This document shows positions 8,409 to 63,037 of a DNA stretch of 64,000 nt, piece after piece. Made by a program: the position numbers and the translations under genes. Position 1 is the first letter of the stretch. Every line of letters begins with the position of its first letter. The stretch is from Gaertneriomyces semiglobifer (lineage: Eukaryota; Chytridiomycota; Chytridiomycetes; Spizellomycetales; Spizellomycetaceae). The stretch is taken from NCBI GenBank assembly GCA_025558075.1, contig JAHLKF010000021.1:273495-337494 (forward strand), written 5' to 3'. The notes beneath the pieces were generated by a model. The model did not search any database and was not told the origin of the DNA. It worked only from the letters and a program-made list of their open reading frames with translations.

Positions 8409-8451
8409 GAGCTCTAGCAGCCCTCGGCGTCGGCTTCTTTAGAAGGAGGGA

Positions 8452-16480: not shown

Positions 16481-16516
16481 TCCCCCTTCGAAAAGAAGGG
16501 CCACCTTGATGCTGGT

Positions 16517-34099: not shown

Positions 34100-34557
34100 T
34101 GTAGCGGGTTTAGACTTCCGCTAGTAATAAGTAGAAGTATGTAGACGCGCTAGTACCAGGGTTAGAGCTATCTTAGTCAGCCAAGTCATGTGATATAATT
34201 TCTGTTGTCGCTTAAGTCAGCGGGGCCTATAAGAGGACCGCGCGGACTTATGCGACGAAGATCAGGCAGACATAGATCTAGGAAGAATACAAGAGGTTCT
34301 ACTCAGATCTATAGGTCCCGTCGCATCTGAACGAGTGAGACATCCGGCAGTTCTAGGACCAGTGACTGATCATCCTGCCCCCTTAGAATCAGCAGTCTTA
34401 TAAGTTCTCCGACGCCTCTCATCCCTAGCCCTGCAGGCATCAACACATCTATTATACCGCCGGCGGACACTTAAACGTCCGGCTTTTAACAAAGGAGATC
34501 ATTAGGAGCGGAGTAATCCTCTTGGAAACCCTACCGTCCGATCATAATCCTTCTACA
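34100..34557 (+). repeat. 5' LTR of Gypsy-A2
   Basis: TGTAGCGGG...CTTCTACA, 458 bases. The last A supplies the first base of the gag ATG; the primer-binding site TGGTGGAGAATCGAG follows without spacer. Confidence 0.95.
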
Positions 34558-36407: not shown

Positions 36408-39400
36408 AGGGGTTTAGCGGGACACAGCGAACAGCTTCAACCCCGCAAACTACGTGGCTGGACAACCACGTACTCCTAGCCGAGCTAAGAGAACTTGAAC
36501 AAAAAGAGAGCGACTCTGCACCGACAGTTGAAGAGCTCCGCAAGGTCGCCACCGTCTGGGGCACCCCGGGCATCGACTTGTTCGGACCAAATCTGGAGGA
36601 ATCACACCTTCACCAAATATTGACTGAACCCATCGCATGGAGTTCCGGTCCAATATATTACGCGTGTGTCCCGCAGGCATACGCTGCGCCCGTTCTTGAA
36701 CGAGTCAAGAAGGACGCTACTCGGTCCTTGATCCTCATCTCACACGTGCCTGAGAGGGATCGAGAGGCTTTCCTGCAGTGGAGCCAGGACCACCCGCTGA
36801 TCGTCCGCGACGATCAGCACGGGCCCGGACTGGTTGCATTTCTGCTAACTGGCCACCCAGCAGTGGCCGATTACTATGTCAGACGTCAATTCCCACGTTA
36901 CGTCAAGCTGGAAGAACACCCACGAGTGCTCGCCATGCAAGACCGTCCTCAGGTCAGACACCTGTTGGCTCAGGACTCGGAGCCCTTGTCACGCCCAAGA
37001 ATCCCAGTCCGTCCCTTCCTTGACAGGGACGAAGCCTGTGCAGCAACTTGGAGAGAGGTGCTTAAAAAGGGGTCGAGCCCGGCAACCTCCTCAATGCAGC
37101 ACAGCACTGCGTTTACCATCACCTCGACGGTGGGGAAGCGTGTAACACTTAGCGAGGTTCCGGTTAACCCAGCTAGTCGCGTCAAGAAACAGCCGTGCTG
37201 GACGCTCACAATTATCAACAGTTTGTGGTTCCCAACCGTGTTGGACACTGGAGCAAGCGTATCGCTCATCTCAGCCAACCTTAAAGGGCCCGCTTACTCA
37301 GACAAGGACTTGCAGGCGGCCCCGGCCATGGATTTTTCCGGCATTGGAGGCCAGCTTAACTCGTCCTCAGTGGTATCGCTTCAGATGTCACTTAGAGGCG
37401 AATCAAGCGAGTACCTTACCTTTCGTGGCTACTTTCGGGTGATTGACTACCCCAAGCCACTTATCATCTTGGCGAACGATATCCTAGGACCTCTGCGAGT
37501 ACAGACCCTAGTCCAGGACCCGCCACTCAAAACGTTTGCGGTCACCATGACCAACCCCGATATCATCGTTCCTTGCTCGGTCACGGCCGAACTGCCAACG
37601 ACTCACATGTCCGGCGTTCGAGTACAAACAGCGTGGGGAATGTTCACAAAGGACCCTTCATTCAAGCAGAAGAAGAAAGCCGCATCGGTATCCGAGGTCT
37701 TCAAGGTCGAAGCAGTCGAGGCATCCTCGGACACCTTGACTCAGTTGATTGACCCAGAGGAGACGCTTACTCGAGATGAAGCCTTAGAGCTTAAGGCCAA
37801 GTGGGACATCCCGGATGACTTAGCAGTAGCACCCGATGACTTCGAGCAACAACTACGCTCAGAGAAGTTCAAGGTGGAGTTGAGCCGAGAGCGGATCGTC
37901 ATCTGGTTCCTCATCCAGCTTCTGCGCAAGTTTCATAAAGCGTTCTCTTACGAAGGCAATTTGATTGGGCATCACGACGAAATTCCTTTCGCGCCCAAGT
38001 TTATCGGACCACCTCCGCCACGCACGAAACCACGACACTTCTCACCGAAGGACAAGGAAGTGTTGGACAAGGAAACGCAAACCATGGTTGGTATCAACCG
38101 CTGGGAGCGCACCGACGACGCCATAGCTGTCAGCGACCCCGTTATAGTTCATTATGTGGACAAACCCCCGCGCATTGCATTTGACTTCCGCGAGGTCAAC
38201 AAGCGCATGGAATGGGATCCATACCCGTTCCCAAACATGGGGAACATTCTACAGTGGCTCGTAGCCATTCCATTCCGTTTTATTTCAGGTGGAGATGCCA
38301 ATAAAGGCTTCTACCAAATTTTCATCGCCGATCCGCACGTGCGCAATTGGCTTTCGCTTCGTCTCCCAGACGGTATCTACCGCTTGCGCTACATGCCGTT
38401 TGGCCCACAGAATGCCCCCGCGCATTTCTGTCGGGTGATGGACCACGTACTGCGCGGCATCAAGTGGCAAGATGTTAATAACTTTGTCGACGATGTCCAC
38501 GCCCACTCTACCACAGCCAAGGATGCCCTAGATGCCATAGCGCAATGGCTTAGTCGGTTCGTTGCCGCCGGCCTCACCCTGCGTCTGGACAAATGCAACT
38601 GGTTGTTCCGAGAGCTCGCAGCCTTGGGCTTCATTGCGTCCCAGGATGGGCTTAGGCCCGATCCAGCCAAGGTCGCAGCCATTACCCAATGGGATCTGCC
38701 GCTCTACGTCGGCGATCTCTGGGGCTTTGTGGGTTTGTTAGGGTTCTTCTGTCGCTTCATTGACAAGCACGCCGAACTCACCAAACCTTTGCATGAGGCA
38801 ATCCTGGAAGGTGTCCAAGCTTATCGCGTACACAAGGCTGCTAGAGACGAGCGCAAGGGGTCACGCCCCCAAGAATCCGCGGGTAAACCCTGGCAAGAAA
38901 CCTTTGACGAAGCCCAGGTGTCCGCGCTAAACTCTACCGCCGACAACCTGGCCAAAGTCACTCTGCAACTTCCGTCAGTGCCATCCAAGGCGGTCAACAT
39001 GCCCGCGGGTGTCATTGACCCTCTTTGCCCAGGCCGCCTCAAACACAAGGCGCCTGACCGGGCCATGAAACGCTTCTTGGCCACTCACCCGGTCGTCTGG
39101 AACGACGACCGAAAAAAGGCCTTCGCAGCCTGCAAGGTGGCGCTCACCTCTGCACCGGTGCTCGCAGCACCACGTTCGGGCTTCCCGATTACCATACACA
39201 CGGATGCATGTGTGGAAGCCTTCAACATTACGGTTGACCAACTACAACCAGATACCACGCGTCGACCGCTAGCCTACTACTCTAGGCGAACTACAAAGAC
39301 TGAGGCCAATGCGCCCCCGGTCGAACTAGAAGCCGGTTGCTTAATTTGGGGCTTCGACAAAGCGCGCTGCTACCTCGAAGGCGCCCAGTTCACGGTAGTC

Positions 39401-39823
39401 ATAGATCACCGTGCCCTCTTGTGACTCAAGAACTACAAAGGGACCAACCGCAAACTACAATGTTGGGCAGTCGAACTTGCCTGTTGGGATCAGTGGATGA
39501 CGATCGTTCACAAACCCGGCCGCTTCCACATAGTCGCGGATACGTTGTCACGGCTAGTAGCAGCCCCCACAGTCCAGCCAGACACCTCCACTCCCACTCA
39601 GAAGGTCGAGGAGGTCGAGGAGGCCGAGGACATCTACACCTTTTACACGTTCGAAACGTATTACCAGCACATAGACTTAGAGCCCACGCTGGTGGCGCGC
39701 ATTTGCGACGCTCAAAGGGCCGAGACGGACAGTCCTGCGACTGCCGCCCTCACCATATTAAGGGGCTCCAAACCACTTGCCGACTTGTCACGCGCCGAGC
39801 TCGCTCTTATTCGCGATTGGCGT
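36296..39823 (+). pseudogene. pol: Gypsy-A2 pol, left part: unknown domain, PR, RT, RNase H
   Basis: Opens in the -1 frame inside the end of gag. Protease has the intact VLDTGAS motif (Asp codon 37244-37246). RT carries GGDANKGFYQ, MPFGPQNAP and FVDD at 38484-38495. RNase H starts with HTDACVEAF; its frame ends at TGA 39422-39424, where Gypsy-A1 has TGG. The sequence then continues in the same frame to 39823, where element B is inserted. The 200-residue segment before the protease (WSSGPIYYACVPQ, LILISHVPERDREAF) is shared with Gypsy-C and has no assigned function. Confidence 0.92.
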
Positions 39824-40397
39824 TGTGGTATAATGGATGTGATTGAGGGATTTAGGTTTAGAATCATAGGAGAAAGATTTATTAGATGAGTTAGACTTAG
39901 CACGCGTAGCTAGCTAGATTCAAGGGACCGCACACCGCGACCAGATGGTCACATGACCATGGTTTTCCTGTTCGCCACGGTCATATAAAAGGCCCCACGG
40001 CGACGGATCTCTGTGTGTTTCCCCAGAGAACATATAACCAAGAAATATAGTGATAAGGTCTAAAAATCCCAGTCTTCTATAGTGTGATTACCATTAGCGT
40101 TGTCCAGATCCGCACCAATCACCAAGTAGACTAGCACTACTAGGTGTTCTCTCACGTCCATTTTAGAGCCGGTAGATTGATATTTTGCCTGGTTAGATTA
40201 GTAGCTAATTAGTTGAACGTCACCTTCACCAAAAATCAGGACATTTCCACCACAGACGGTTGTTTTGTCCATAGTTAGAAGTGTGAACGTCCTTGTCGAG
40301 GTAGATGTGTGAACCGTGTTAGAATTCCAGTAACGCGACTTTATTAGATTTCTGTGTGAGATGCCGGGAAACTAGTCAATAAAGTCAAGTTGCGACA
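39824..40397 (+). repeat. 5' LTR of element B
   Basis: 574 bases, contains TATAAAAGG at about 39985 as a core promoter and AATAAAGTC near the 3' end as a possible polyadenylation signal. Preceded by the target duplication GCGT. Confidence 0.93.
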
Positions 40398-40399
40398 CC

Positions 40400-40416
40400 T
40401 GGTGGAGAATCGAATC
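40400..40416 (+). promoter_or_regulatory. Primer-binding site of element B
   Basis: TGGTGGAGAATCGAATC, two bases after the LTR. The first 14 bases equal the Gypsy-A primer site, so both families probably use the same tRNA. Here the two-base spacer prevents the ATG seen at the Gypsy-A and Gypsy-C junctions. Confidence 0.75.
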
Positions 40417-40482
40417 GGGTTACCATTGACCCAGAACATCTACTCGACAAAACACGGTGCCGACAATTAAAACACCGTGATA

Positions 40483-42546
40483 ATGGCTTTATTCGACCAT
40501 GACAGCGAGATTTATTCTACCGACCCAGAGGGCGAACGGACCGATGACGTGACTAGCACGACGGTACGCCGTGTCGCCCCACTTCTGCCTGGGCATTCTA
40601 TGGAAGAATCCACGGCTGATGACGGTATTCCGGATGTCCGTATCTATTCTAGCGGAGCGCCAGTGTTTGGCACCGTGGAATATGAGAGGTGCATAGTGGA
40701 ATTCTCCGACGCAGTCGCTGAGGCAGAGGCTGTCCGTGTAGCTGATGGGGATTTTGGTATCATCCACGTGGATTATTATTCTACGGCAAGAGTGCACTTT
40801 GCCGGCAAAGAACATCCACTAGATGGTGATCCAGCACGAGTCCTTGGAGCTGTGCTGCTACAGGCCGCCAAGAGATTTATTGCCACGGGCGTCCCACTGA
40901 ACATCCAAAATGTCCAGGATGATTTTTTCAGAGTAGTCGAACAGATCGGGACTCTGTATGAATCTGCCGCCGTGATGCCGACAGCAAAAGGATGGTTGCA
41001 GGCCGTTCCGGCTGGATACACTGGTATACTGGGGAAGGAGTTTGCCGATCAGCTGTTATTCCTCCAGACATACTACAGTTGGACCGACAGCGAACACCGT
41101 CGGCGGGAGGCAGAGAAACGTAGAGTCCAGAAGGCAATAGACCGTGGCGATTTACCTGCACCACCTGGTTATTTAACTAAAAGGGATCAAGAAAAATGGG
41201 AGCGCAATCACTTACGTCAGGCTCAGTGGCGTGTCGAACAAAATCTCGTGCGTGAGCATTTAGAAGCCGCACGTGAACAGACCGCTGCTCTACGTGAATT
41301 AGTCCAGACCGTACTCACTGGTCGAGAAACCTTAACAGCTAGTGTTTCTCACCGTGGTGTGGTGTCAAAGAGTGATGGTCACTCGGCCCGGTACGCGAAG
41401 TATTCCGGACCGAAGTATCAAATCTCCTTGAACATCTTTCACTGGTTACGGACCTTTGAACGTATCTGTCAGCGGGAAGGTATTACCACCGATCATGACA
41501 AAATGAATTACCTACGCAAAGCTCTGGATCCAAGTGAACTCCGTGTGTGGGATTGGTATAGCGCCATTGACTTTGACCATATGCCTTGGTCCGATATTCG
41601 CTCCTCGATGATTGTCCACTTCACTAGTGAGACTCAGCGTCATCCGAGTACACTGTGGACCAAGTTATCTCAGTTACGCAAATCATCAACTGAATCAATT
41701 CAAACCTTCCAACAAACATCCCAACAAGCGCTTCTTGATTTGCAAGATGCTAACGCCATATCAGCAGTTCCCTTTTTACCGACCAATCACCAGATGGCTA
41801 CTGCCTGGTGGGCCGCTCTAGGAGACCGTGATGTTAACGTTCTGGCTATGGGAATAGACGTTGATTCAAGGATTGAAGATGTCATCTCACGAACCGTTGC
41901 TCAGTACGACCGTCTTGAGAGTATTCGCGCTTGTGATCGCTCTATCGGTAATCCTCGGTCAGCAGCTGGCGACCGTCCGATTAAACCTGTGGCACCCAAG
42001 TTTAGCGGTACTGCCCCAACGGTGATGGCAAAAACAACGACCACCACGGCATTTACCTCTGACAAGCGATCATCTAATCCACCGAACCAGAGGCCGTATC
42101 AGAATAATCGAGTTTCCACGCCCCCTACACAGTCGCGTTTTCGATCAGCGACACCGACAAATTCTAGTGGTAACCAAGGAAAACCAACTTCTCAAGGAGC
42201 TGCACGAACTACGACCGCTCCTACAAAAGATGAAGTGGCGACTCTGACCGATAAGTTACAGAAGATGTCAATAAAATTGGGGAGCCAACCTACCCAGTTT
42301 GATGTTAGCCAGGCGACGTGCTACCGTTGTGGTGACACCGGTCACATCTCACGGAACTGTGAATCCGAAGCCGTGCTACCCACGTGGAGAGGATATCTCT
42401 TGATGTCTGGTGATAACGAGGATCAACCAGAATTAGAGTATCATCCCGGCTTGGAGCAAGCGTATGCTCGGGTGTTCCAATTGGCGTACCATGAAACTGA
42501 TGTTGATAGTGATGGTGATGACGTGGATAACACTGAGGATTTTTAA
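40483..42546 (+). CDS. gag: Element B gag
   Basis: 687 codons from ATG 40483 (MALFDHDSEIY). The N-terminal 200 residues are a novel-looking globular region; a charged helical segment follows (REAEKRRVQKAI, VEQNLVREHLEAAREQ) and then a capsid-like region (HWLRTFERICQREGITTDHDK, WDWYSAIDFDHMPW). A Thr/Ser/Pro/Asn-rich linker leads to a standard zinc knuckle CYRCGDTGHISRNC (CX2CX4HX4C) and an acidic tail ending DDVDNTEDF. The stop codon lies in GATTTTTAAAT; pol continues in the -1 frame right there, so slippage on the T-run could join them. Confidence 0.88.
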   Translation: MALFDHDSEIYSTDPEGERTDDVTSTTVRRVAPLLPGHSMEESTADDGIPDVRIYSSGAPVFGTVEYERCIVEFSDAVAEAEAVRVADGDFGIIHVDYYSTARVHFAGKEHPLDGDPARVLGAVLLQAAKRFIATGVPLNIQNVQDDFFRVVEQIGTLYESAAVMPTAKGWLQAVPAGYTGILGKEFADQLLFLQTYYSWTDSEHRRREAEKRRVQKAIDRGDLPAPPGYLTKRDQEKWERNHLRQAQWRVEQNLVREHLEAAREQTAALRELVQTVLTGRETLTASVSHRGVVSKSDGHSARYAKYSGPKYQISLNIFHWLRTFERICQREGITTDHDKMNYLRKALDPSELRVWDWYSAIDFDHMPWSDIRSSMIVHFTSETQRHPSTLWTKLSQLRKSSTESIQTFQQTSQQALLDLQDANAISAVPFLPTNHQMATAWWAALGDRDVNVLAMGIDVDSRIEDVISRTVAQYDRLESIRACDRSIGNPRSAAGDRPIKPVAPKFSGTAPTVMAKTTTTTAFTSDKRSSNPPNQRPYQNNRVSTPPTQSRFRSATPTNSSGNQGKPTSQGAARTTTAPTKDEVATLTDKLQKMSIKLGSQPTQFDVSQATCYRCGDTGHISRNCESEAVLPTWRGYLLMSGDNEDQPELEYHPGLEQAYARVFQLAYHETDVDSDGDDVDNTEDF

Positions 42547-42632
42547 ATCCGGTGTTGTTGGGGGGGAAAACCAACACCGACACAGACGCACCCCCGCCCG
42601 GCCGTCTATTAACAGCTTTTAGACGACTACTC

Positions 42633-44471
42633 ATGGCCGCGAAACGTGGTCACGACAGTGTAGCTGAGTCGGAAAGCCGTGCCACTAAGAAACAACGTGT
42701 CACTATTGACATTCCAATTATTAAAAAGAAAACACAGAAAATAAAATCAACTGTTGACTCACCACCGACTGGACCCACAGCGGTGACCAAGGTGCAGAAA
42801 CCTCCCGTTGCGGTAACCTCACGTAGTGGTTCACCAGAAGATAATCCGAATATCCCCACACCACCCACCGTTCCGCTATCATCACGTAAAACTCAACCGC
42901 GTACGAAGCCGGCAGTTTTAGACGAGGATGTCGAAACAGTAGGTGATCTATCAACAACTCCACGTTTGATACGTGCTGTTGTAAAAGCATATCAGAATAA
43001 AGGTGGCGCTTTTGATGTCATCAAGTTCTTGAATGCTACCCTGGTAACGGACATGTCATTGGCCGATTTGCTCTGGGTATCACCGTTCCTACGAAAAGAG
43101 ATGGTGAAATCTTTGCGAACCATACCGAGACATGTCCATGTGAATTTATTAGCCACCCACCCGTTTTTGCATACCCTGAACGAGGAGAATGGCGGTGATC
43201 CTGGTAATCAGAATACGTTTAACGCTCGAATAGCTCGCGTGACGGCGACGATCTCCAGCACCGGCACTCACTACCTTAACGGCCAGATAAACGGAGTTGC
43301 TCAACGGATGCACTGGGACAACGGTTGTTGTATCGTGTGTATCCATGCCCGAGTCCGAAAGGCCAACGGTTGGGAATTGGCAGACAACACGACTCCTATG
43401 CATTTACGACTAGCCGACGGTATGTCACCTAGGATCGAAGGCGAGGTCCACAATGTGGTTTTTCGTGTTGCCGAAGGAATAGAAATACCCTTAAATGTGG
43501 TCTCTATCCGCAATCTGGATGGGGATGTACTGTTAGGACGTCCCTTCTTTGAACTAGGCCGTGTCATTGTGGATTCTTACCGTGGACTGTATAACGTCCG
43601 GTGGAATAAACAGTGGGCAGTGGTTCGAGGACGTGACGGTCCGGTTTTTCCACAAAACCAATTGACCAGCTCTGACAGAGAAGAGTGGGAATACAGTCGA
43701 CCGCCGAGATTTGAAGAACCGACCAGCGGCCAGATCTCCACGGTGACTGATGAGAGAAGAGACCGCGTGATGAGATTATCATTCGTACATGATCGGTATC
43801 ACGTAGAACCGGACCCTCAGTTTGACCTACTTAATGCTGTCAAGTCCGACGACATTGAGGATATCTACCAACTCGTCACGGCACCCGGAGATTGCCGACC
43901 ACCTGACACGGTGGTAAATAACTCTATGACCAGAGAATTACGTCAGTGGTTGTTATCAGCAGAGAAACCCACGGTTCGCACGATGCTCACACGATATGGA
44001 TCCGCAACGGAACCGGGCATTGTAGAGTTATGTGAAACCAATCGGCGTGACAGACTCAAAGTCGTGAGCTGGAATGTCAACAGTATCCGTAACTTAATCC
44101 GTGGTAACTCAAGTTTCGTGGAACTACACGGTGGTGTCAGTTCTAGTGCGCTGGGTGTATATCTCGAGAAAGAGGGGATAGATATCCTGTGTCTGCAAGA
44201 ACATCGTTTGACCACGCCCGCTGATGCCAAAGAGGGCATACTACCGCCTGCCGGTTTTGTTGCGTACTATTCTTTTGCTACGCACATCAAAGGTTACAGC
44301 GGTGTATCACTCTACGCACGAACCGGATTAGTCAAACAAGTTTTCGAAGGTTTACCCGGCTCAAAACTTACGTGTGATCTAGAAGGCCGGATTATCGGAG
44401 TGATTTTGGCCAACGATATGGTATTATTGAACCTTTACCTGCCAAACGCTAGAGCAACCGGTTCAGCGTGA
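42633..44471 (+). CDS. pol: Element B pol, part 1: protease-like domain and AP-endonuclease N-terminal half
   Basis: The frame is open from 42537; the first ATG is 42633 (MAAKRGHDSV). A basic linker is followed by a retropepsin-like region: INGVAQRMHWDNGCCIV, where DNG stands at the usual D-T/S-G position, and VLLGRPFFELGRVIV, the usual protease C-terminal LLGR block. From about 44055 comes an ExoIII/APE1-type nuclease: VVSWNVNSIRN (metal Asn), ILCLQEHRL (metal Glu), GYSGVSLYAR, NLYLPNA (active-site Tyr). The ORF stops at 44469 (TGA), but the nuclease continues in the +1 frame, so a single frameshift divides it near 44460. Whether this is mutation or recoding cannot be told from one copy. Confidence 0.8.
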   Translation: MAAKRGHDSVAESESRATKKQRVTIDIPIIKKKTQKIKSTVDSPPTGPTAVTKVQKPPVAVTSRSGSPEDNPNIPTPPTVPLSSRKTQPRTKPAVLDEDVETVGDLSTTPRLIRAVVKAYQNKGGAFDVIKFLNATLVTDMSLADLLWVSPFLRKEMVKSLRTIPRHVHVNLLATHPFLHTLNEENGGDPGNQNTFNARIARVTATISSTGTHYLNGQINGVAQRMHWDNGCCIVCIHARVRKANGWELADNTTPMHLRLADGMSPRIEGEVHNVVFRVAEGIEIPLNVVSIRNLDGDVLLGRPFFELGRVIVDSYRGLYNVRWNKQWAVVRGRDGPVFPQNQLTSSDREEWEYSRPPRFEEPTSGQISTVTDERRDRVMRLSFVHDRYHVEPDPQFDLLNAVKSDDIEDIYQLVTAPGDCRPPDTVVNNSMTRELRQWLLSAEKPTVRTMLTRYGSATEPGIVELCETNRRDRLKVVSWNVNSIRNLIRGNSSFVELHGGVSSSALGVYLEKEGIDILCLQEHRLTTPADAKEGILPPAGFVAYYSFATHIKGYSGVSLYARTGLVKQVFEGLPGSKLTCDLEGRIIGVILANDMVLLNLYLPNARATGSA

Positions 44472-46335
44472 AACATATAAACAACTTCTCATGAAAGCTC
44501 TCACCGATTACGTGCACCAATTGAAACTCAATAATCAGCACGTGATCATCGTTGGTGACTTGAATGTCGTCTACCGAGAAGTGGACATCTGGGACCCGGC
44601 CGAGATGTGTGGTGCACAACGCCAATCACCATGTCTGCCGTGGGAATCACAGTGGGTCCGATCTCTGGTGGCGGATGTTCTCACCGACGCTTGGGTCATG
44701 TTTGACCAAACCGGACATCCTAATTTTTCCACTTGGGAACACGGTAAACTGTGGGGTAAATCACGTCGAGAACTCAACCGTGGACTACGCGTTGATCACG
44801 TTCTAGTGAGCAAGGAGTTAGCACCGACAGTTCACAGCTGTAATCTGGTTGACGTCCCCGGCTCTGACCACATACCCATATCCGTGACTTTTCAGTTCGA
44901 TGAACGATGTCTCGGTAATGACGGTGATAATCCCGTTATTGCTGGTAGAGTCTTTTCGCTCACCGCCAGAAAACGTGGTGGACAAGTACAAACCACCGTG
45001 GCCGGCGCGCGACTCGAATATACCACGTACAATGGTAAAGAACCGACACCCACACGGGAATTAGATCCTGCTCTAACAGAAGGGAGGGTTATTCACGTCG
45101 GTGATTTGCCAGAACTCCAACCGTACCTACCTGCCATAGAGGATATTTTCCGTGATCACCTACCGGAAATCCTTGAACCTGGGGGTATGGCCAGAACTTT
45201 AATTGATGTGCCACCGATGCTCGCTCAGGTAGACCCGTCGAACACGGAACCGTTGCCCTCTGCGAATAAACGACGGTGGTCACCGTTAGAGGAAACAACT
45301 CTAAATGAATATCAAGAGAGGATGGTTCAACACGGTAAAATGGAACCGTCGTCATCCACAACTTCCGCTATACCGATGCTAGTGGCCAAAAAGGATGGCA
45401 CCTACCGAATTGTTGTGTCATACAAGGTCCAGAAATATCTCCTGGCATTGAACTGGCCACTAGAGCCGTGCGACAAGGTCCTTCAAAAAATGGCGAGATG
45501 GGACTGGGTATCGATGTTCGATCAATCCCTTGGCTACCACCAGTGCCCGATGTCCGAGTGTTCCCGATGGTTAACAGCCGTTGTTTTTCCACGTGGACTC
45601 TATCAATACACCGTAGCACCGATGGGATGGAAGGATTCCGCAGAATGGATGACCAAACACATGTGTATCATGTATGATGACATGGCGATCGTCAGAAACG
45701 CTGACCTACAGGATCACATGTCGTTATTTCGTGATGATGGAAGTGTCGGAACCAACACAATTGATGAACACCTTTATTTTGTCCGGAGGTTACTAAACTG
45801 TGTAAAGAGACACAACGGAACTCTCTCGGATAAGAAATCACGGTGGTTCGTCAAGCGTGCCTATGCTCTAGGATTCCTAGTTGGTCAGAACGAGGTCGTA
45901 CCAGAGGAGAAAAAGGTCCGCGCCGTACTCGAGTGGCCAACACCTACGGACCAAACAAAGTTACGATCATTCATTGGGTTCATCAACTTTTTCTGTCATT
46001 GTGTACCTGAGAATGGACGGATCGTCGCTCCACTGTACCGGCTGTTCCGAGCCGATTACTCACCGCCAAAAGAGTATCAGCGTGAGTGGTCCGCTAGCAC
46101 CATCTACGCCGGAACTTTTCTCAAGGTGAAAGAGGCTATTGCCCAAGCCGCTGCCCTACGAACATTTGACAGTAGTCGTGTGATCATTTTAGCGGCTGAT
46201 GGGTCAAAAATTGGATTAGCTGTGGTAGCTGGTCACGCTGTCAACGTTCAGGATGATACCGACCTCCGAGCGGATACCAGCTATTGGCCTTGTGCCTTTT
46301 ACAGCCGACCGTGCACGGACACGGAACAGAGATAA
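44472..46335 (+). CDS. pol: Element B pol, part 2: AP-endonuclease C-terminal half, RT, RNase H start
   Basis: The +1 frame is open upstream of 44461 and reads QRETYKQLL, matching the nuclease continuation. Then VGDLNV (Asp and Asn), REVDIWD, NRGLRVDHVLVS and PGSDHIPIS (Asp-His pair): every catalytic position of the ExoIII family that I can locate is filled. RT follows: PMLVAKKDGTYRIV, MFDQSLGYHQ (first Asp), VAPMGWKDSAEW and IMYDDMAIV. The polymerase motif is thus MYDD rather than Y/F-x-DD. RNase H starts with AADGSKIGLAVV and ends at TAA 46333-46335 in the segment DTEQR. Confidence 0.85.
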
Positions 46336-47163
46336 AGTCAATCAGAACGGGAATTCTTGGCAATCATATACGGTGTCGGGAAAATCCAACCGTACATCGG
46401 CCGACGGCTAGTCATCCTCACTGATCACAAGGCCTGGGTACAATGCCAAAACACAGTTACCAAAAATGCCCGTGTTGAGAAATGGAGAGTTAAACTAGCA
46501 GCATTACCTTTGGACGCTGGTTACCCAAAATTCCTCTTCAGATCCGGTATCCAACAGTACGATGTCGACCCGTTGTTTAGATTAGATCAACGAACACCAC
46601 CGACCGCTGACTTAGACGAAAAGATCACCGCAGAAGTCGAAGATCCGATAGTCCTACGGTTACGGTTGTGTCGACTCGGTTGGCAGCCGTACGATGACAT
46701 TGCCGCGTGGTTACGCGGTGATTTTGATGCCACGTGGGATGCAAAATACCATTGCTCCCTCTCGTTGATGGCAAAACGCTATTTTCTCGATCTGGAGACG
46801 TCCAAGCTGTATCGCCGGTCACGACTAGGCACACCGCCTTGTTTAGTACCATCGGTAGATGAGGTTCAGCGCTTGATCGGTAGTTATCACGGCGAGTGCG
46901 AAGCGATAGGACATCTGTCTGCCGTGTCAACTTATCAGCTGATGGCGGCGAAGTATTATTGGAAAAGGATGTTTGCTGATATAGAAAAATACGTTAAGGG
47001 CTGTAGTGCCTGTGAACAACGACGACGAGCTCACCCCGTTGGTCGTTACCAATTGTTTCGGATTATTTCACCGACTACAATGTTCTGTCTGGTTGGAATG
47101 GACACGTGTGCCCTGCCAAAATCTTATCAAGGGCATATCGGCTACCTTTTGCTGGTGGATTAG
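46336..47163 (+). CDS. pol: Element B pol, part 3: RNase H end and integrase start (after nonsense codon)
   Basis: Same frame as part 2 and separated only by TAA. SQSEREFLAIIYG supplies the RNase H Glu, ILTDHKAWVQ its Asp. Integrase begins with a zinc finger (YHGECEAIGHLS ... GCSACEQ, HHCC) and has its first Asp in GMDTCALP. TAG at 47161-47163 interrupts the core domain. Confidence 0.8.
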   Translation, partial: SQSEREFLAIIYGVGKIQPYIGRRLVILTDHKAWVQCQNTVTKNARVEKWRVKLAALPLDAGYPKFLFRSGIQQYDVDPLFRLDQRTPPTADLDEKITAEVEDPIVLRLRLCRLGWQPYDDIAAWLRGDFDATWDAKYHCSLSLMAKRYFLDLETSKLYRRSRLGTPPCLVPSVDEVQRLIGSYHGECEAIGHLSAVSTYQLMAAKYYWKRMFADIEKYVKGCSACEQRRRAHPVGRYQLFRIISPTTMFCLVGMDTCALPKSYQGHIGYLLLVD

Positions 47164-48372
47164 ACGAGTGATTGGCTCTACGTCAAAGCTTTACGTAAAT
47201 TTACCGGTGATACCATGATCACTAGTGTTCAGACATACACTTACCAGTTTGGATGGCCACAGTGGATTATCGCCGACCTAGCGTCATATTTTGTTGGTGA
47301 TCCGTTTGCCACGTGGGCCGTTAACCAAAAGATCCAACTCTTGCCGACTTCTAGTCAACACGCTCAGGGAAATGGGCGAGCCAAAAAAGCCCACAGTGTG
47401 GTAGTTCCGTTGATCGCCCGACGTCTGCTGAAAGCCGGATTACCGCCAAACCGCTGGATAGACGTGCTCGAAGGTGCCGTCTCTGATTACAACCATCACA
47501 CCTCACGAGTAACGGGATGTTCACCGTATCGGTATGTTTTTGGTCAGGACGTCCGTCTACCGGTAGACACTACGTCCCTGTTGCCCTTTGAACTCGAGGA
47601 GTTACGTGATATACGTGGTTCATTCGTCGAGGCTGTGGAGGAATTACGTGCTACTGCTAGGAAGAATAAAGAGGATCAGCGATTAGAAGATGCTGCCAGA
47701 GAAAACACTGCTGACCAACCCGTAGAGTACATTCCCGTTGACTACGTTTGGGTTCTCAACAAGGCCGATAACTCAACGTTCAGCACGGAAAGGAAACTAC
47801 GTGCCCGGTGGATCCTCTGTCAAGTCGTCAAGGCTTCTCTAGGAGGTACATACATCCTCAACAATGCCACCACCGGTCAACCTTTTGCCAATGGTAACAA
47901 GATTTCTCACTGGCGTATGAGGCCAGCCGTCGAGACGGAAAGTTGGCATACCTACGCGGAGCGTCTGGAAGACAACCCTGACCCCACTAAGATGACTGTG
48001 CCACTAGCGCGATTGTCTCTGCTCACCACAATGGACGTGTCAAACGCGCTCCGTCCAGAGCTTTTCTCAGAGTTGACGCTACCCAGCGTGTACCAGGACT
48101 CTTACTTTGACAGCTCTGACACCGGAACTGTAAACAGAGATAACAGCATGGCCGTCTGTCAAAATAACCGTCTTTGCCTGATGCGAAAAGAAGGAAGTAT
48201 ACCCAGTGGAATATTTAAACAGCAGCGAGCTCACGATGACCCGCTTAGCACCGGCCTGACTAGCCACCACGATCAGGATGTCCGAAGCAACTTCCACTGC
48301 AACACCTATGGATCAGGAAGTGGTGACCACCTCAACGGACCAGACTCTCAACGCTGCCAACCAACCTGGTAG
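47164..48372 (+). CDS. pol: Element B pol, part 4: integrase core end and C-terminal domain (after nonsense codon)
   Basis: Same frame as part 3. The second catalytic Asp lies in IIADLASYF, which departs from the common SDxGxxF. At the third position GNGRAKKAHS has Lys where a Glu is expected (codon AAA, one transition from GAA). The integrase of this copy should therefore be inactive. The C-terminal part (VWVLNKADNSTF, RARWILCQVVK) resembles the GPY/F-type tail. The 3' end overlaps the next ORF by 95 bases. Confidence 0.78.
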   Translation, partial: TSDWLYVKALRKFTGDTMITSVQTYTYQFGWPQWIIADLASYFVGDPFATWAVNQKIQLLPTSSQHAQGNGRAKKAHSVVVPLIARRLLKAGLPPNRWIDVLEGAVSDYNHHTSRVTGCSPYRYVFGQDVRLPVDTTSLLPFELEELRDIRGSFVEAVEELRATARKNKEDQRLEDAARENTADQPVEYIPVDYVWVLNKADNSTFSTERKLRARWILCQVVKASLGGTYILNNATTGQPFANGNKISHWRMRPAVETESWHTYAERLEDNPDPTKMTVPLARLSLLTTMDVSNALRPELFSELTLPSVYQDSYFDSSDTGTVNRDNSMAVCQNNRLCLMRKEGSIPSGIFKQQRAHDDPLSTGLTSHHDQDVRSNFHCNTYGSGSGDHLNGPDSQRCQPTW

Positions 48373-49936
48373 TGCCCATGTCCGTGACGCACGTGGCCGC
48401 TTCGTCAAGAATCCTCTTAGGACACCTACCTTTAAACGACGCCACAGTACCGCGATTAGGAGAAATCCCAGGAGCACTGTATCACTAGGTTCTGTGATAG
48501 CTGAATTGACCACTACCACAGAGTTAAACATCTCACCAGCAGATGTGGATAGTGCATCCGAGGAGACTTCACCATTAACGGATCTAGAGGAAGATTCACC
48601 GACAGAATCCTCTCTGTCAGACACATTAAGAACTCGCGCTTCAGAGGAACCCGAGAATACCACACCGATATCGGTTGCCCACGCTTCATTATTGCCACCC
48701 GGCAGACGTTCCCGTCGCGGTCCGTTACCTGACCACGGAAACGCCCGGTCACCAGTGATTCCACCATGGCTATATGCCCCTCCGGGTAGTTCCGCATCCT
48801 GGAACATGGATCAGGATTTAATTCACCATGGTGAACAGGCTCGGGAACTCTCGCTGTATCCATTAAATCCTTACCTGAATCACTGGAACCAGCGAGTTAA
48901 ACAGTTCATCGTCAACTTCCGAACTTACCCAACACCATCGCTCCGAAGAGACTCCCGTTACGACATCACATGGTGTGCACTCAGTGAAACGGAAGAACAA
49001 CAACGAGGTATCCAGATCATCGATTTTGACCAAGATATTTTATTCTATGGTCAAAGTGAAAACGGTGCCGTACCGTTACTTGCCGTTTTCCGCCAACCGC
49101 CACCTGTCACCGCTTTACTGGACAAAATGAACCGAATTATCAACAAATGGTGTGGCGTACCCCAGATGCAACCTCACCCACCAACTCGTGAAGATTTATA
49201 TATGTCCAACCCGTTGATACCCGGTAGACCTTTTGGTGGAGTACATGAAGGAGTGTTCGTTCGCAGAGCCAGCCGATTACGCATCGTCCATCCTGCCCAG
49301 GAAACAAATCAGCGGTTAAATCCCAACTGCACCGTGGACCAGCAAAATCGAGATGTCTACAGAGCATTGACGTCTATGGAATTCACAGAATTTATGTGCG
49401 CGTGTTCAGAAAACGGTCTCGACGTGTTTCTGGCACAAATCCTCTACCTGCTGGATCCTAGTCACGCCCGCTCACGTGCGACGCTGATCCAACAATTCCC
49501 ACGTTTTGCTCGGCGGCAGTTACTTGACCATGATGTCAATACCACTCATTTCTTTGGATGGAACACCGTTATCGCACCACACCATGACGTGATAGACTCA
49601 GGTCTCGGACTTCAAGTTATGTGGGGCACATACGGGAACGGTGGAGGAACAGTGTTTCCAGAAATTGGAGTTCACGTCCGACATCCACCAGGTGATGTAC
49701 TCGTCTTCCGACCAAGCAGCCTCGTCCACTACAGCAAACCTTGGGCAGAAGGTTCTCGTTTCTTCCACACGATGCACGTGAATAAAGATATCGAGCAGGC
49801 AGCAATTGCCCACACTGACGTCTGGAACATCGCGCCCGATTGGACCACAGATGAGACTCGGAACACCGATATCGATGCTATCACAACTGCTCTAACAGCA
49901 GCCGGCATCTCGGATCCTGGTTACGCGCGGACGTAG
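48278..49936 (+). CDS. Element B 3' ORF: disordered N-terminus and 2OG-Fe(II) dioxygenase-like domain
   Basis: 552 codons, uninterrupted, ATG at 48278 inside the end of pol. The first 170 residues are Ser/Thr/Pro/Arg-rich and probably disordered. The last 160 look like a double-stranded beta-helix oxygenase: an H-x-D triad start (HHD, residues 435-437), a glycine-rich strand pair (TYGNGGGTVFPEI), PPGDVLVF, the distal His in VHYSKP (residue 484) and an Arg about ten residues later (GSRFFH) that could bind 2-oxoglutarate. The layout resembles fungal TET/JBP-like genes linked to transposons (Iyer and Aravind group work), but the substrate is unknown. It is the only large ORF of the element besides gag that is intact. 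Confidence 0.6.
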   Translation: MSEATSTATPMDQEVVTTSTDQTLNAANQPGSAHVRDARGRFVKNPLRTPTFKRRHSTAIRRNPRSTVSLGSVIAELTTTTELNISPADVDSASEETSPLTDLEEDSPTESSLSDTLRTRASEEPENTTPISVAHASLLPPGRRSRRGPLPDHGNARSPVIPPWLYAPPGSSASWNMDQDLIHHGEQARELSLYPLNPYLNHWNQRVKQFIVNFRTYPTPSLRRDSRYDITWCALSETEEQQRGIQIIDFDQDILFYGQSENGAVPLLAVFRQPPPVTALLDKMNRIINKWCGVPQMQPHPPTREDLYMSNPLIPGRPFGGVHEGVFVRRASRLRIVHPAQETNQRLNPNCTVDQQNRDVYRALTSMEFTEFMCACSENGLDVFLAQILYLLDPSHARSRATLIQQFPRFARRQLLDHDVNTTHFFGWNTVIAPHHDVIDSGLGLQVMWGTYGNGGGTVFPEIGVHVRHPPGDVLVFRPSSLVHYSKPWAEGSRFFHTMHVNKDIEQAAIAHTDVWNIAPDWTTDETRNTDIDAITTALTAAGISDPGYART

Positions 49937-50039
49937 TTCTGACTAGCACCACTACTCGTGCGCGTTGGAGTGGAGGTATGAAAGGGGAATTCCTCGCTTG
50001 GCACATGTTGACAGGGACGACAACACGGAGGCATGAGGA

Positions 50040-50615
50040 TGTGGTATAATGGATGTGATTGAGGGATTTAGGTTTAGAATCATAGTAGAAAGATTTATTA
50101 GATGAGTTAGACTTAGCACGCGTAGCTAGCTAGATTCAAGGCACCGCACACCGCGACCAGATGGTCACATGACCATGGTTTTCCTGTTCGCCACGGTCAT
50201 ATAAAAGGCCCCACGGCGGCGGATCTCTGTGTGTTTCCCCAGAGAACATATAACCAAGAAATATAGTGATAAGGTCTAAAAAACCCAGTCTTCTATAGTG
50301 TGATTACCATTAGCGTTGTCCAGATCCGCACCAATCACCAAGTAGACTAGCACTACTAGGTGTTCTCTCACGTCCATTTTAGAGCCGGTAGATTGATATT
50401 TTGCCTGGTTAGAGTAGTAGCTAATTAGTTGAACGTCACCTTCACCAAAAATCAGGACATTTCCACCACAGACGGTTGTTTTGTCCATAGTTAGAAGTGT
50501 GAACGTCCTTGTCGAGGTAGATGTGTGAACCGTGCTAGAATTCCTAAGTAACGCGACTTTATTAGATTTCTGGGTGAGATACCGGGAAACTAGTCAATAA
50601 AGTCAAGTTGCGACA
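50040..50615 (+). repeat. 3' LTR of element B
   Basis: 576 bases, ends TTGCGACA and is followed by the duplication GCGT (50616-50619). A purine-rich stretch (GGAGGCATGAGGA) precedes it as polypurine tract. Confidence 0.93.
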
Positions 50616-52005
50616 GCGTCTTAACAACGAGATATTGGAACACCATTACGCTCACGCCGACAACTCCCCTTGGCGCACTTACGTGCCCGCCGACCTGCGC
50701 ACCGAGGTGCTCGGCCTTATTCACGAGGGGGGAGGGCACTTTGGCTTCACAAGGACGTTTGCTAAAGTGGCAGCCCAATTTTGGTGGCCACATATGTCTC
50801 GGGAAGTACGCAACTTCTGTCGGGCGTGCGAAAAATGCCAGCAAACAAAGCCCGGACCCCGTCACACACCCGGGCTCCTTAACCCAATTGAAACACCTCT
50901 GGGACGGTGGGAATGTATCACGACGGACTTTCTCACCAAATTACCGTTAACTGCACGAGGCCACGACGGCTTCCACATCATATGCTGTAAGAAAACGCAC
51001 CGTGTGCACATCTACGCGCATAATAATACGTGGAAAGCTGATCGCACGGCGCGTGTGCTCGTGGAGCGCTACTACCCACTGCACGGCCTACCTCGCAAGA
51101 TTATTTCGGACAGAGACACACGTTTCACCAGCCTGCTATGGAAAGAAGTCAAACGGCAACTGAACATAGATCGTCACCTAACCACGTCTTACCACCCGCA
51201 AGGCGACGGCCAATCAGAGCGTGAGAACCGCTTGGTTCTCCAAGTGCTCCGGACGGTCGTCAATGCGCGACTGGATGACTGGGACCTGTGTCTACCGATG
51301 GTAGAGTTTGCCATCAATGACACATTACACGAGGGAATGCAGATGACTCGGTTTGAAGCCGATCTCGGATATTCCCCCTCGACTCCTTTGGGCGCGCTGT
51401 CCAAGGATCTAAAAAGCGTGCGCAACGCTACAGCACCCGAGCTGCTCCAACGCTTGCAGGACATTGACGTCCTCACGAGAGAACTCATGTTCGAAGCGCA
51501 AGCGTTACAGAAATAGTACTACGACAATTCGCACAGAGAAGTCACGTACAAGAAAGGGGACAAGGTGTACCTTAGCACCAAACACCTCAAAGGTTACGAA
51601 GGGAAACTGACCTGACGATGGGCCGGGCCGTTTGATGTAACCGCAGTGGAAAAATACGACGTCTACAAGCTCAAATTGCCAGACACCATGAGTCGATTGT
51701 ACCCCTACTTCCATGTCTCGAAACTAAAAGAGTACATCGAGCCTCAGCCGGGCCAGAAACGGTACGATAACCCGGGCCCCGAGATCGTCGATGATGAGGA
51801 AGAGTGGGAAGTAGAAGCAGTTGTCGGACACAGAGACTTTGGACGGCGGAAACAGCGGCAATACAAAGTCCACTGGAAAGGATGGGCCGACTCGGAGGAC
51901 CCGTGGGAGCCCGAGTCACAACTCACCAACTCCAAGGACGCCATCGAGGAGTACTGGAAGGGGTTACCCCAAGTTCCAGACACCGCCTTTCTATTCCACT
52001 TATAG
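50616..52005 (+). pseudogene. pol: Gypsy-A2 pol, right part: integrase and chromodomain
   Basis: Resumes the Gypsy-A2 polyprotein after element B. The zinc finger (HEGGGHFGF ... CRACEKC), catalytic TDF, SDRDTRF and QSERENR are intact, unlike the frameshifted Gypsy-A1 copy. Two stop codons follow, TAG at 51514-51516 and TGA at 51613-51615. The chromodomain (VEAVVGHRDF, YKVHWKGWADSED) is open to the stop at 52005. Confidence 0.9.
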
Positions 52006-52711
52006 ACACAGTCGATCATCATCGATTGTGCCGCTCCGCAATAGCCTCAATTGGCATCAGGAGTGTTCTAAGGGTAATCAAGCCACCCTACAAATGAAGC
52101 GAAAACATGGGAGTCCTTCGTCGCAATCACACTGACACGACAATCCCAGGAGTTCGTCTCCAAAAAAAGGACTCATCCAGGCCGACCAGGACCCATCCAG
52201 ATCGGTCTTTTCCGAGGCTCGTGCCCGGAATCAGCAAGCGGCAGCCGCCACCAACAAGGAACGGCTTGTCAGCTAGAAAAAAGCGCAGGGCTCGTTCAAC
52301 AGCTGTCAAAATTACCCGTTCGCGTATGCTGCGGAGATTTGCTTACGTACAAGCTATTTATAGACGTGAACTGGCCCTACGCGCTTCACCTGTCAAGATC
52401 TGAACGACTTCCCAATAAACGGCAAACACACGAGGGTCAGAGGGAAGGAGGTTGAAGACAGAGTATCAATAGGGGAAGTACTTTCCCAAAACGAAGAAGA
52501 AGAAAGAAGCACACGGATGCTGGCCATACAGGCCCCCGGCTTATAAAAGAGGGTTCACCGACGCTGTCTGGGGAAGGTTGGTATCATCGTACAACTTCGC
52601 CAGTACTAGCAAACCGCCAAGCAGTCCAAGACCGTCTTGACCTCCTTGACCTCTCTGTCGCTCCGTCAAACCTTCTAGTACCCTTCAACACCCCAGTCAA
52701 AGGCACCCACC
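52006..52711 (+). promoter_or_regulatory. Gypsy-A2 internal promoter and leader of ORF3
   Basis: TATAAAAGAGGG at 52542 is followed about 170 bases later by CACCATGG at the ORF3 start, a strong eukaryotic start context. The same arrangement is kept in Gypsy-A1 although the bases in between have diverged. A 98-codon basic frame at 52107-52403 is broken in Gypsy-A1 and not called. Confidence 0.5.
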
Positions 52712-53455
52712 ATGGCCGCTCAACCAGCTCCCGTTCAGATGGTCTGGGATTCCTTCAGTCCCTCCTTTATTGACGACGCTGGTAAAGAGCATCTGGGTGC
52801 TGAAATCGCTGCCTGGGCCCTTGAGGCCGTCCACAACACAACCGGCCCCCAAGCTGCCCAGCCGTTCAACTACGCGCCCACGGGAATCCAGTTTTACTAC
52901 AACGGACCGTCCCCCGCTGAAATCGGTTCCGCTCCGCATTTGTTGTTGCTTAATCCCAACAACAAAGCCCCATCCATCCTCAACGCCCGGATGGGACTGG
53001 TAAAGGACGTCGGCAAGGCCGGCCAACACCAGCGGCCCGCACCTTCCGCCGGATCCATCCGACAGGGCACAGTTCAGCAACTGGCCACGGGACCTCAGCC
53101 GAACCAGTATGTCTACACTCCTTGGCCGACCGACATGATCCGGTTTGCCAACCACGTGCTGGTAGCCGCCCGCAAGTGTATTGCCACCTCCAACGCTTTT
53201 CACAGCACTATGGCCGCCAACTACCCCTCCGGGCACCCGCGCCACGACCATCACAACATCTGCTCAAACTTTGGCATCAAGATCCACAGGACCCTGACGG
53301 CCGTCGCAGTCTTGGACCCCCATAGCACTGGGCTCGCCGCCGACGACGCTATTTATTTCGTCGGTTCTGTCGGCGAACGATGGGTCGTCCTCTTCATCGT
53401 CAACTGGGATACCGTTATCCCGCCCACTAACCAGCAAGGCTTACACCTGCTCTAG
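52712..53455 (+). CDS. Gypsy-A2 ORF3, intact accessory protein of unknown function
   Basis: 247 codons, MAAQPAPVQMVWD to QQGLHLL. It lies between pol and the 3' LTR, where an envelope gene would sit, but there is no signal peptide or membrane segment. Alpha/beta-looking sequence with conserved pieces LLLLNPNNKAPSIL, MGLVKDVGKAG, FANHVLVAARKC and RTLTAVAVLDP. Both Gypsy-A copies keep it, with mostly conservative changes, and both precede it by a TATA box. The end of the Gypsy-C polyprotein shows a similar series of blocks (GLRTDVRKS, ARLVAVLDH), so it is probably a shared module: free here, fused there. It may also be a captured host gene. Confidence 0.8.
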   Translation: MAAQPAPVQMVWDSFSPSFIDDAGKEHLGAEIAAWALEAVHNTTGPQAAQPFNYAPTGIQFYYNGPSPAEIGSAPHLLLLNPNNKAPSILNARMGLVKDVGKAGQHQRPAPSAGSIRQGTVQQLATGPQPNQYVYTPWPTDMIRFANHVLVAARKCIATSNAFHSTMAANYPSGHPRHDHHNICSNFGIKIHRTLTAVAVLDPHSTGLAADDAIYFVGSVGERWVVLFIVNWDTVIPPTNQQGLHLL

Positions 53456-53498
53456 GAGCTCTAGCAACCCCCGCCTTCGGCTTCTTTAGAAGGGGGGA

Positions 53499-53956
53499 TG
53501 TAGCGGGTTTAGACTTCCGCTAGTAATAAGTAGAAGTATATAGACGCGCTAGTACCAGGGTTAGAGCTATCTTAGTCAGCCAAGTCATGTGATATAATTT
53601 CTGTTGTCTCTTAAGTCAGCGGGGCCTATAAGAGGACCGCGCGGACTTATGCGACGAAGATCAGGCAGCCATAGATCTAGGAAGAACACAAGAGGTTCTA
53701 CTCAGATCTATAAGTCCCGTCGCATCTGAACGAGTAAGACATCCAGCAGTTCTAAGACCAGTGACTGATCATCCTGCCCCCTTAGAATCAGCAGTCTTAT
53801 AAGTTCTCCGACGCCTCTCATCCCTAGTCCTGCAGGCATCAACACATCTATTATACCGCCGGCGGACACTTAAACGTCCGGCTTTTAACAAAGGAGATCA
53901 TTAGGTGCGGAGTAATCCTCTTGGAAACCCTACCGTCCGATCATAATCCTTCTACA
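53499..53956 (+). repeat. 3' LTR of Gypsy-A2
   Basis: 458 bases after polypurine tract AGAAGGGGGGA. About ten substitutions from the 5' LTR, mostly transitions. Directly followed by a virus-like ORF. Confidence 0.95.
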
Positions 53957-63022: not shown

Positions 63023-63037
63023 CTTAGGGTTAGGGTT
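63023..63037 (+). repeat. Short interstitial telomere repeat
   Basis: TTAGGGTTAGGGTTA, two and a half units, 720 bases before the telomere and between the Copia LTR relic and the 115-base duplication. Confidence 0.85.

Follow-up and report, generated by a model that had tools for sequence, protein, structure and literature searches.

What role might a nuclease of AP endonuclease type play inside the pol gene of an LTR retrotransposon, and does an additional open reading frame downstream of pol have any part in it? The question is raised by a 64,000-nucleotide stretch of the genome of the chytrid Gaertneriomyces semiglobifer (hereafter the window), positions 39824-50615 of which comprise a single Ty3-type LTR retrotransposon (Table 1). 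The TG...CA LTRs and GCGT target-site duplication described in the initial annotation are present, and to these can be added an empty site. The host sequence of the insertion is a chromovirus: joining the outer flanks yields the continuous ORF of this interrupted element, and a paralogue of it, at about 1-8894 of the window, is unbroken at that place (ORF 2328-5834). The LTR pair differs at 10 of 576 aligned columns (eight substitutions and two gap columns), and the element's own 5' and 3' LTRs are the only full-length LTR matches found in a search of the genome. The candidate primer-binding site begins with TGG two bases past the 5' LTR, with no tRNA matched to the site.

Table 1. Features of the retrotransposon, in positions of the window
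Feature	Position	Strand	Basis
Target-site duplication GCGT, left	39820..39823	.	sequence
5' LTR, TG...CA, 574 bp	39824..40397	+	sequence, genome search
Candidate primer-binding site, starts TGG	40400..40417	+	sequence; inference
gag ORF, CCHC zinc knuckle at aa 614-628	40477..42546	+	ORF list, Pfam
pol ORF part 1: protease-like region and nuclease N-terminal half	42552..44471	+	ORF list, Pfam, TIGR00633
Aspartic protease-like region	43278-43547	+	within pol ORF part 1
Nuclease N-half: SWNVNSIR, LQE, LYLPN	44055..44465	+	TIGR00633; PDB ExoIII/APE matches
Nuclease C-half, different frame: GDLNV, RVDHVLVS, GSDH	44443..44892	+	TIGR00633; PDB ExoIII/APE matches
pol ORF part 2: nuclease C-half, RT, RNase H start	44491..46335	+	ORF list, Pfam, PDB
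RT	about 45250-46050	+	catalytic box FRDDG; within pol ORF part 2
RNase H remainder and integrase H2C2 zinc region	46357..47163	+	ORF list, Pfam
Integrase core remainder and pol C-terminal region	47215..48372	+	likeness to RT-bearing relatives P0004-P0006
3' ORF, 552 aa, overlaps pol end	48278..49936	+	codon use, own HMM, pattern
Possible 2OG-Fe(II) oxygenase core	49577-49777	+	within 3' ORF
3' LTR, 576 bp	50040..50615	+	sequence
Target-site duplication GCGT, right	50616..50619	.	sequence

The gag zinc knuckle (PF00098, E 1.1e-5) and the Ty3/Gypsy order of protease (PR), RT (PF00078, E 3.1e-11), RNase H and integrase are as originally proposed, with the protease (PF13650, E 0.0018) and RNase H (PF17919, E 2.9e-4; PF17917, E 1.5e-4) falling under the curated Pfam cut-offs. 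The integrase of the window copy is recognised by its H2C2 finger (E 6.7e-14), its core being unmatched by Pfam; the pol piece 47215-48372 alone likewise has no Pfam match, and no glycosylase or dUTPase match is seen anywhere in the element with Pfam. The pol frame changes within the nuclease, at the overlap of its two halves, and in-frame stops occur at 46333-46335 (the end of pol part 2) and 47161-47163 (inside the integrase core), so the window copy is non-functional as it stands: a dead yet fairly recent Ty3-type copy. The frame change and stops do not appear in the initial annotation.

The best two PDB matches of the RT are 4ol8 (E 4.8e-32), named reverse transcriptase/RNase H and derived from Ty3, and 7q5b, Ty3-G Gag-Pol (E 5.7e-31); both favour grouping it with Ty3 RTs. 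LTRs, a gag zinc knuckle and the PR-RT-RH-IN order are common to this element and the Ty3/Gypsy elements (Metaviridae), but it differs from them in the ExoIII-type nuclease that separates PR from RT, in an RT box that reads F/Y-R-D-D-G in six of seven rows of the family rather than the canonical Y-x-D-D, and in a family protease motif of D-N-G or D-G-G rather than the canonical D-S/T-G. In the RT tree the family branches on its own, separate from the 13 other rows of Ty3 RTs; the support is 100/100 and comes with a warning of long branches. This tree leaves out the copia row, P0011, P0013, P0005 (which has no first half of RT), P0008, P0009 and P0015, as well as loci L011, L014, L015, L017 and L020; the RT trees are built from Ty3 rows, apart from a single copia row that was included in another tree only and sits there on a very long branch. 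The host group of the element's lineage is probably the chytrid fungi.

Evidence that an ExoIII/APE1-type nuclease with the motifs given in Table 1 lies between protease and RT, as had been claimed, comes from profile and structure searches. TIGR00633, the ExoIII equivalog, recognises each half of the nuclease (E 3e-15 and 4e-20; 56.4 and 72.4 bits, each partial and under the whole-protein cut-off of 99.05), PF03372 does so too, and the PDB matches listed are ExoIII, APE1 and their kin. The motif blocks N, E, Y, D-x-N, D and D-H, which contain the residues with catalytic roles in such nucleases, are all present in the window, across two frames. Judged by sequence, the nuclease is close to the cellular ExoIII/APE enzymes: it shares family and motifs with the ExoIII/APE1 (xth) AP endonucleases but sits in a retroelement pol. 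Elsewhere in the host genome TIGR00633 matches just two pieces on C5, both weak and of exon size, so the nuclease was not copied recently from any host gene that can be recognised.

The same protease-nuclease order is found in a second element (L025) at the opposite end of the same chromosome and in a Fimicolochytrium jonesii protein (P0016) that is 30% identical. Between the window copy and L025, amino acid identity is 33% in the protease, 36% in the nuclease N-half and 29% in gag, indicating at sequence level that the nuclease N-half is as conserved as the protease and more so than gag. At the divergence of these two DNA copies dN/dS is not applicable, so we used codon-position differences instead; across 119 codons of the N-half these are 0.54, 0.36 and 0.77 for positions 1, 2 and 3, in a protein-guided alignment that favours conserved columns. 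WNVNS, QE, the Y/L-x-PN block and GD-x-NV are common to all three sequences, and in L025 and P0016 the first four motif blocks are present, with the last two beyond their sequence ends. Against TIGR00633, P0016 scores 148.9 bits, over the cut-off, whilst L025 scores 78.1, a partial match under it. None of the three copies has a complete uninterrupted nuclease: in L025 a stop intervenes between the protease and the nuclease and the telomere truncates the element, and P0016 ends upstream of the last two motif blocks. That the order recurs in such divergent relatives nevertheless points to an ancient fusion that appears to be under constraint. Copies lacking both the nuclease and the oxygenase-like 3' ORF, which the initial annotation had named as the case against its reading, did not turn up; both protease-bearing relatives carry the nuclease, although the query that retrieved them spanned protease and nuclease, and neither sequence reaches its own 3' end. 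Recurrence in the same position is seen for the nuclease; of the 3' ORF a single copy is known. Two further pieces, an RT relic (L026, 45% identity) and a 58-bp LTR-like piece (L027), have no further ORF of the family visible by eye among the listed ORFs of at least 100 aa, and scans of viral contigs and genome contigs confirmed no relatives.

The 3' ORF itself is coding, as judged by its length and composition: 552 codons are open (a chance of about 3e-12 for any one start, given base composition) and its codon use resembles that of gag-pol in its own frame only. The H-x-D...H...R reported earlier is present, at residues 435/437, 484 and 494, and we lean slightly towards reading the ORF as a PF13640-type 2OG-Fe(II) oxygenase. 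With an HMM of 10 PF13640-type references the ORF scores 6.3 bits, above 99 decoys and as high as none of 2000 shuffles. One reference, L046, had joined the set through a weak match to the 3' ORF; without it the score is 4.9 bits (0/2000 shuffles as high), without both L046 and L052 it is 0.7 bits (12/2000), and with an HMM from three host references alone it is -3.2 bits (295/2000). Because the score depends in this way on its references, we have reduced what was a fairly confident assignment to that slight preference. The held-out L047 (8.8 bits) is a weak control, having been recruited via a match to the 3' ORF and with its own PF13640 match under the cut-off. The pattern H-x-D...GG-x-T...G...F...H...G-x-R, defined after the fact, occurs in all 10 references and the 3' ORF, in none of the 99 decoys and in 32 of 100000 shuffles; hhalign gives 27% probability (E 0.00066), and the reversed ORF returned no row. 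The proposed 2OG-type ORF retains modest support, its profile score resting largely on two of the ten references, and it matches no Pfam family at E 10, PF13532 included.

More specific assignments were rejected: TET/JBP, with no match to Tet_JBP (PF12851), and AlkB, with no PF13532 match and none to an HMM from four host loci. Tet_JBP has no match in the host genome either, a weak control given that it matched 1 of 14 genomes and none over the cut-off; with PF20515 no control gave a match. No protein homologue of the 3' ORF was found at E<=10 among 8000 candidates scored, its own genome contains itself alone and plasmids gave nothing at E<=1. Phages gave only E 0.8-9, in 6 records; the match to phage S-MS29 (E 6) is annotated as a 2OG oxygenase and that to a Dickeya phage (recorded twice) is antisense to a gene. 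PHROGs gave one weak 2OG match (E 0.26), from a C-terminal fragment of the ORF only, and a PDB match to tricorn-interacting factor F3 (E 0.55) was taken as chance.

What, then, might the nuclease do? Being encoded inside Pol, it would be packaged with RT in the virus-like particle and released by the protease. It could then cut abasic sites and clean blocked 3' ends in new cDNA, leaving 3'-OH ends for RT to extend, and damaged or uracil-bearing cDNA would thereby be repaired ahead of integration, itself the presumed task of a DDE-type integrase and the LTR ends. We give an even chance to this reading, in which the particle carries an AP endonuclease/3'-end cleaner that works together with RT on cDNA; of the two guesses made in the initial annotation, a nuclease aiding reverse transcription is the better, ahead of demethylation by excision. 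The alternative that survives best is 3'-end or RNA-DNA processing during reverse transcription in place of base repair. ExoIII has 3' exonuclease, 3'-phosphatase and RNase H side activities, and the nuclease adjoins RT in Pol and matches TIGR00633, but the element has an RNase H region of its own (below cut-off), and we consider this alternative unlikely.

Precedents for repair of cDNA come from fungal and retroviral systems. In PosPlaTy3-5 and other dUTPase-bearing fungal chromoviruses a uracil-control enzyme is likewise located between PR and RT, a dUTPase where the window element has an AP endonuclease-type nuclease (PMC2864245). HIV particles hold UNG2 and, according to one contested report, APE1, and HIV lysates are able to repair uracil, but other groups find no APE1 in the particles or find virion UNG2 dispensable, and APE1 in HIV is reported mainly as degrading uracil-bearing cDNA (PMC2427051). 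The 3' ORF may be a separate PF13640-type 2OG-Fe(II) oxygenase, perhaps for direct reversal of nucleic-acid modification. It is a doubtful further step to a chytrid Ty3-type lineage with a repair kit, in which the Pol AP endonuclease would act with RT on cDNA inside the particle and a 2OG-Fe(II) oxygenase, expressed on its own, would directly reverse alkylation or methylation of the element's RNA or DNA; the dependence of the HMM score on its references makes this slightly less likely than it first seemed.

Could these be functionless foreign sequences acquired by one copy? The 3' ORF is single-copy with no homologue found, all copies seen are broken, and Exo_endo_phos, perhaps host-derived, is sporadic in the Kuafuorterviruses (PMC11673190). 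However, the nuclease occupies the same place in three elements that are about 29-36% identical, with its motifs kept, and the 3' ORF is like gag-pol in its choice of codons; chance capture of the nuclease is unlikely, and that of both parts looks quite improbable. In non-LTR elements, APE-type nucleases nick target DNA for priming. Belonging to the same superfamily (PF03372), the nuclease could in principle do this here, with LINE-like target-primed reverse transcription replacing or aiding the integrase, but the LTRs, exact 4-bp target-site duplication and integrase H2C2 finger are in keeping with ordinary integration and, whilst PDB structures of LINE endonucleases exist, none is named among the 57, 59 and 43 PDB matches listed, making this a poor prospect. 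Least probable, and unsupported here, is the joint demethylation first suggested, in which the 3' ORF would oxidise methylated bases and the nuclease complete their removal, undoing silencing: a possible 2OG-type 3' ORF, 16 C5-methylase (PF00145) matches in the host genome and the carriage of TET/JBP by fungal DNA transposons (PMC12730594) favour it, but the Tet_JBP (in ORF and, as a weak control, genome) and AlkB-HMM searches gave no match, the element has no glycosylase match, and, the 3' ORF being known from a single copy, its pairing with the nuclease has no known counterpart outside the window.

Other mobile elements resemble this one in part. The Kuafuorterviruses are LTR elements also reported with Exo_endo_phos but, unlike the window element, are animal elements that carry it only sporadically and are proposed as a separate LTR superfamily (PMC11673190). 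Orchid Ty3/Gypsy elements have an extra ORF for an AlkB m6A demethylase, with clear homology and tested activity (PMC9289625), whereas the extra ORF here is possibly 2OG and PF13640-like at best, and the window element also has the nuclease in pol. Fungal DNA transposons with TET/JBP likewise carry a presumed oxygenase of 2OG type, but the window element is a retrotransposon whose ORF has no Tet_JBP match; according to that source, TET/JBP was found in no retrotransposon (PMC12730594). Among the papers listed in searches of the open-licence PMC literature, we saw no LTR family with both nuclease and oxygenase.

The APE-type nuclease, considered a hallmark of LINEs, is now placed in a Ty3-type pol. 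Known retroelement answers to damaged or uracil-bearing cDNA are dUTPases in Pol and packaged host glycosylases, and a conserved Pol-embedded AP endonuclease, if confirmed, would be a further one and would allow base repair within the particle to be tested using the domain in isolation. Should the more doubtful repair kit also prove real, a single LTR retroelement would combine a base-excision with a direct-reversal enzyme.

The element under study is inserted in another retrotransposon, a chromodomain-bearing Ty3 element (Chromo PF00385, E 1.3e-13). Alignment of the LTRs, the joined flanks and an empty-site paralogue confirmed the TG...CA LTRs and GCGT target duplication described in the initial annotation. 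The two LTRs differ at 10 of 576 columns (3 transitions, 5 transversions and 2 gap columns), the outer flanks form one continuous ORF once joined, and a paralogue of the interrupted element is uninterrupted at the insertion point, providing a natural empty site. In a search of the host genome, the only full-length LTR matches were the element's own two, with a single further 58-bp piece found on contig C31.

The window takes in the right end of contig C21 (337,494 bp, in a host assembly of 20.9 Mb and 66 contigs), and both ends of this contig consist of TTAGGG repeats. The right subtelomere is transposon-rich. Separately, matches to PF00145 (C5 DNA methylase) number 16 in the host genome and are spread over several contigs.

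Features of the two ends of contig C21 (L025, related element at the left end)
Feature	Sequence	Coordinates	Strand	Remarks
Paralogue of interrupted chromodomain element	window	about 1-8894		natural empty site
Ty1/copia-like ORFs	window	9570-14021		judged by eye
Further Ty3-like element	window	15733-24983		direct repeats at both ends
Interrupted chromodomain Ty3 element	window	34243-53941		
Studied element	window	39824-50615		flanked by GCGT
LTRs of studied element	window			574 bp and 576 bp, TG...CA ends
3' ORF	window	48278-49936		552 aa
ORF resembling tyrosine-recombinase-type integrase	window	54401-55498		365 aa, judged by eye; no Pfam match at E 0.1
Tandem units	window	63034-63263		two identical units of 115 bp, adjoining telomere
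TTAGGG repeats	window	63758-63997		right end of C21
Gag	L025	4047-2293	minus	
Protease ORF	L025	2182-1025	minus	
Nuclease ORF	L025	1024-245	minus	
Left telomere array	L025	1-245		

Gag carries a CCHC knuckle, and the Pfam signatures in pol place the nuclease after the protease and ahead of RT, followed by RNase H and integrase, in agreement with the Ty3/Gypsy order first proposed; the matches to protease and RNase H fall below their cut-offs. The third expected acidic residue of the integrase core is absent from its usual place when read beside P0005, an RT-bearing relative. Despite little LTR divergence this copy is dead, because a frame change splits the nuclease and pol contains two in-frame stops.

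Both halves of the nuclease match the ExoIII equivalog profile TIGR00633 (E 3e-15 and 4e-20, each below the whole-protein cut-off) as well as ExoIII/APE enzymes of known structure, upholding the assignment of an ExoIII/APE1-type enzyme between protease and RT. The same protease–nuclease order recurs in L025 and in P0016, a 761-aa protein of the chytrid Fimicolochytrium jonesii, although both came from a protease–nuclease query and do not measure how frequent nuclease-free relatives are. In L025 an in-frame stop separates the two ORFs and the nuclease ends directly in the telomere array, just past GDLNVAH. P0016, the sole match at E<=0.01 among 8000 scored candidates (30% identity over 97% of the 510-residue query), holds both domains in a single ORF and exceeds the TIGR00633 cut-off. 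The motifs WNVNS, QE and GD-x-NV, together with a Y/L-x-PN block, occur in each of the three elements. Identity between the window element and L025 is 33% in protease, 36% in the N-terminal half of the nuclease and 29% in gag, with nuclease differences by codon position of 0.54, 0.36 and 0.77, and the only other TIGR00633 matches in the host genome are two weak pieces on contig C5. Taken together, these comparisons indicate that the nuclease is an old, apparently constrained part of the element lineage and not a recent host capture.

A search with the RT ORF gave 15 matches at E<=0.001 (8000 candidates scored), six of which (P0001–P0006) show 41–68% identity over 33–70% of the query, the remaining nine being distant (24–32%). 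The named relatives come from Spizellomyces 'palustris' (Chytridiomycota) and F. jonesii, which makes a chytrid the probable host. In an RT tree built without P0005 (which lacks the first half of RT), P0008, P0009, P0011, P0013, P0015, a copia row and loci L011, L014, L015, L017 and L020, the window element groups with P0001–P0004 and P0006, apart from the 13 remaining Ty3 RT rows; support for this clade is 100/100, and the tree carries a long-branch warning. The catalytic box reads F/Y-R-D-D-G instead of Y-x-D-D in six of seven rows (window element, P0001–P0006) and S-C-D-D-G in P0002. Since the ORFs of P0001–P0004 start just past the expected nuclease end, the family may possibly use a separate RT frame, rather than having undergone decay alone; P0016 ends near the nuclease end, and the frame change of the window element falls within the nuclease.

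The 3' ORF, which overlaps the end of pol, is coding: its codon score per codon is +0.078 in its own frame, whereas the two alternative forward frames score -0.031 and -0.045 and the reverse frames lie between -0.009 and +0.004. Its C-terminal part holds PHHD (with H435 and D437), GGGTVFP, GDVLVF, H484 and GSR, and so includes the H-x-D...H...R residues behind the initial reading as a 2OG-dioxygenase-like protein, but it has no Pfam match at E 10 and its HMM score depends on the references chosen. An HMM of ten references (three host loci and seven phage loci, L049 being assigned by likeness alone) scored 6.3 bits over aa 454–500, stopping short of H-x-D, against 2.5 for the best of 2,000 shuffles and 0.7 for the best of 99 other ORFs; references left out singly gave 13–94. 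One reference, L046, had itself been recruited by a weak match to the 3' ORF. Without it the score was 4.9 bits, a value that none of 2,000 shuffles reached (the top decoy scored 1.4); it fell to 0.7 (reached by 12/2,000) on also removing its look-alike L052 and stood at 6.3 (0/2,000) on removing L043 instead; the three host loci alone gave -3.2 (295/2,000). A full-length 2OG pattern, set post hoc, was found in 10/10 references, the 3' ORF, 0/99 decoys and 32/100,000 shuffles. Against the assignment, the hhalign probability was 27%, no homologue was found among 8000 scored proteins, and the ORF is single-copy in its own genome. On balance, we lean slightly towards placing the 3' ORF among the 2OG oxygenases.

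Searches of the open-licence PMC literature brought up no match to the architecture of this element. Related pieces are described: Exo_endo_phos occurs sporadically in Kuafuorterviruses (PMC11673190), methyltransferases in LINE- and DIRS-type elements (PMC5890265) and AlkB reportedly in orchid Gypsy elements (PMC9289625), whereas the 3' ORF has no AlkB match. Fungal Exo_endo_phos has been linked to LINEs (PMC10799480); that the nuclease serves LINE-like target priming is less likely here, because the element has LTRs, a target duplication and an integrase. The proposal that nuclease and 3' ORF jointly oxidise and excise modified bases lacks support, Tet_JBP matching neither the 3' ORF nor, with a weak control, the host genome.

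A fungal Ty3 element is described with a dUTPase at the same Pol position (PMC2864245), and uracil repair in HIV particles is reported, if contested (PMC2427051). By analogy with these, the most likely working mode of the Pol nuclease would be particle-borne repair of cDNA: Pol processing inside the particle would free the nuclease alongside RT, the freed nuclease would cut abasic sites and clear blocked 3' ends, and RT would then fill in.
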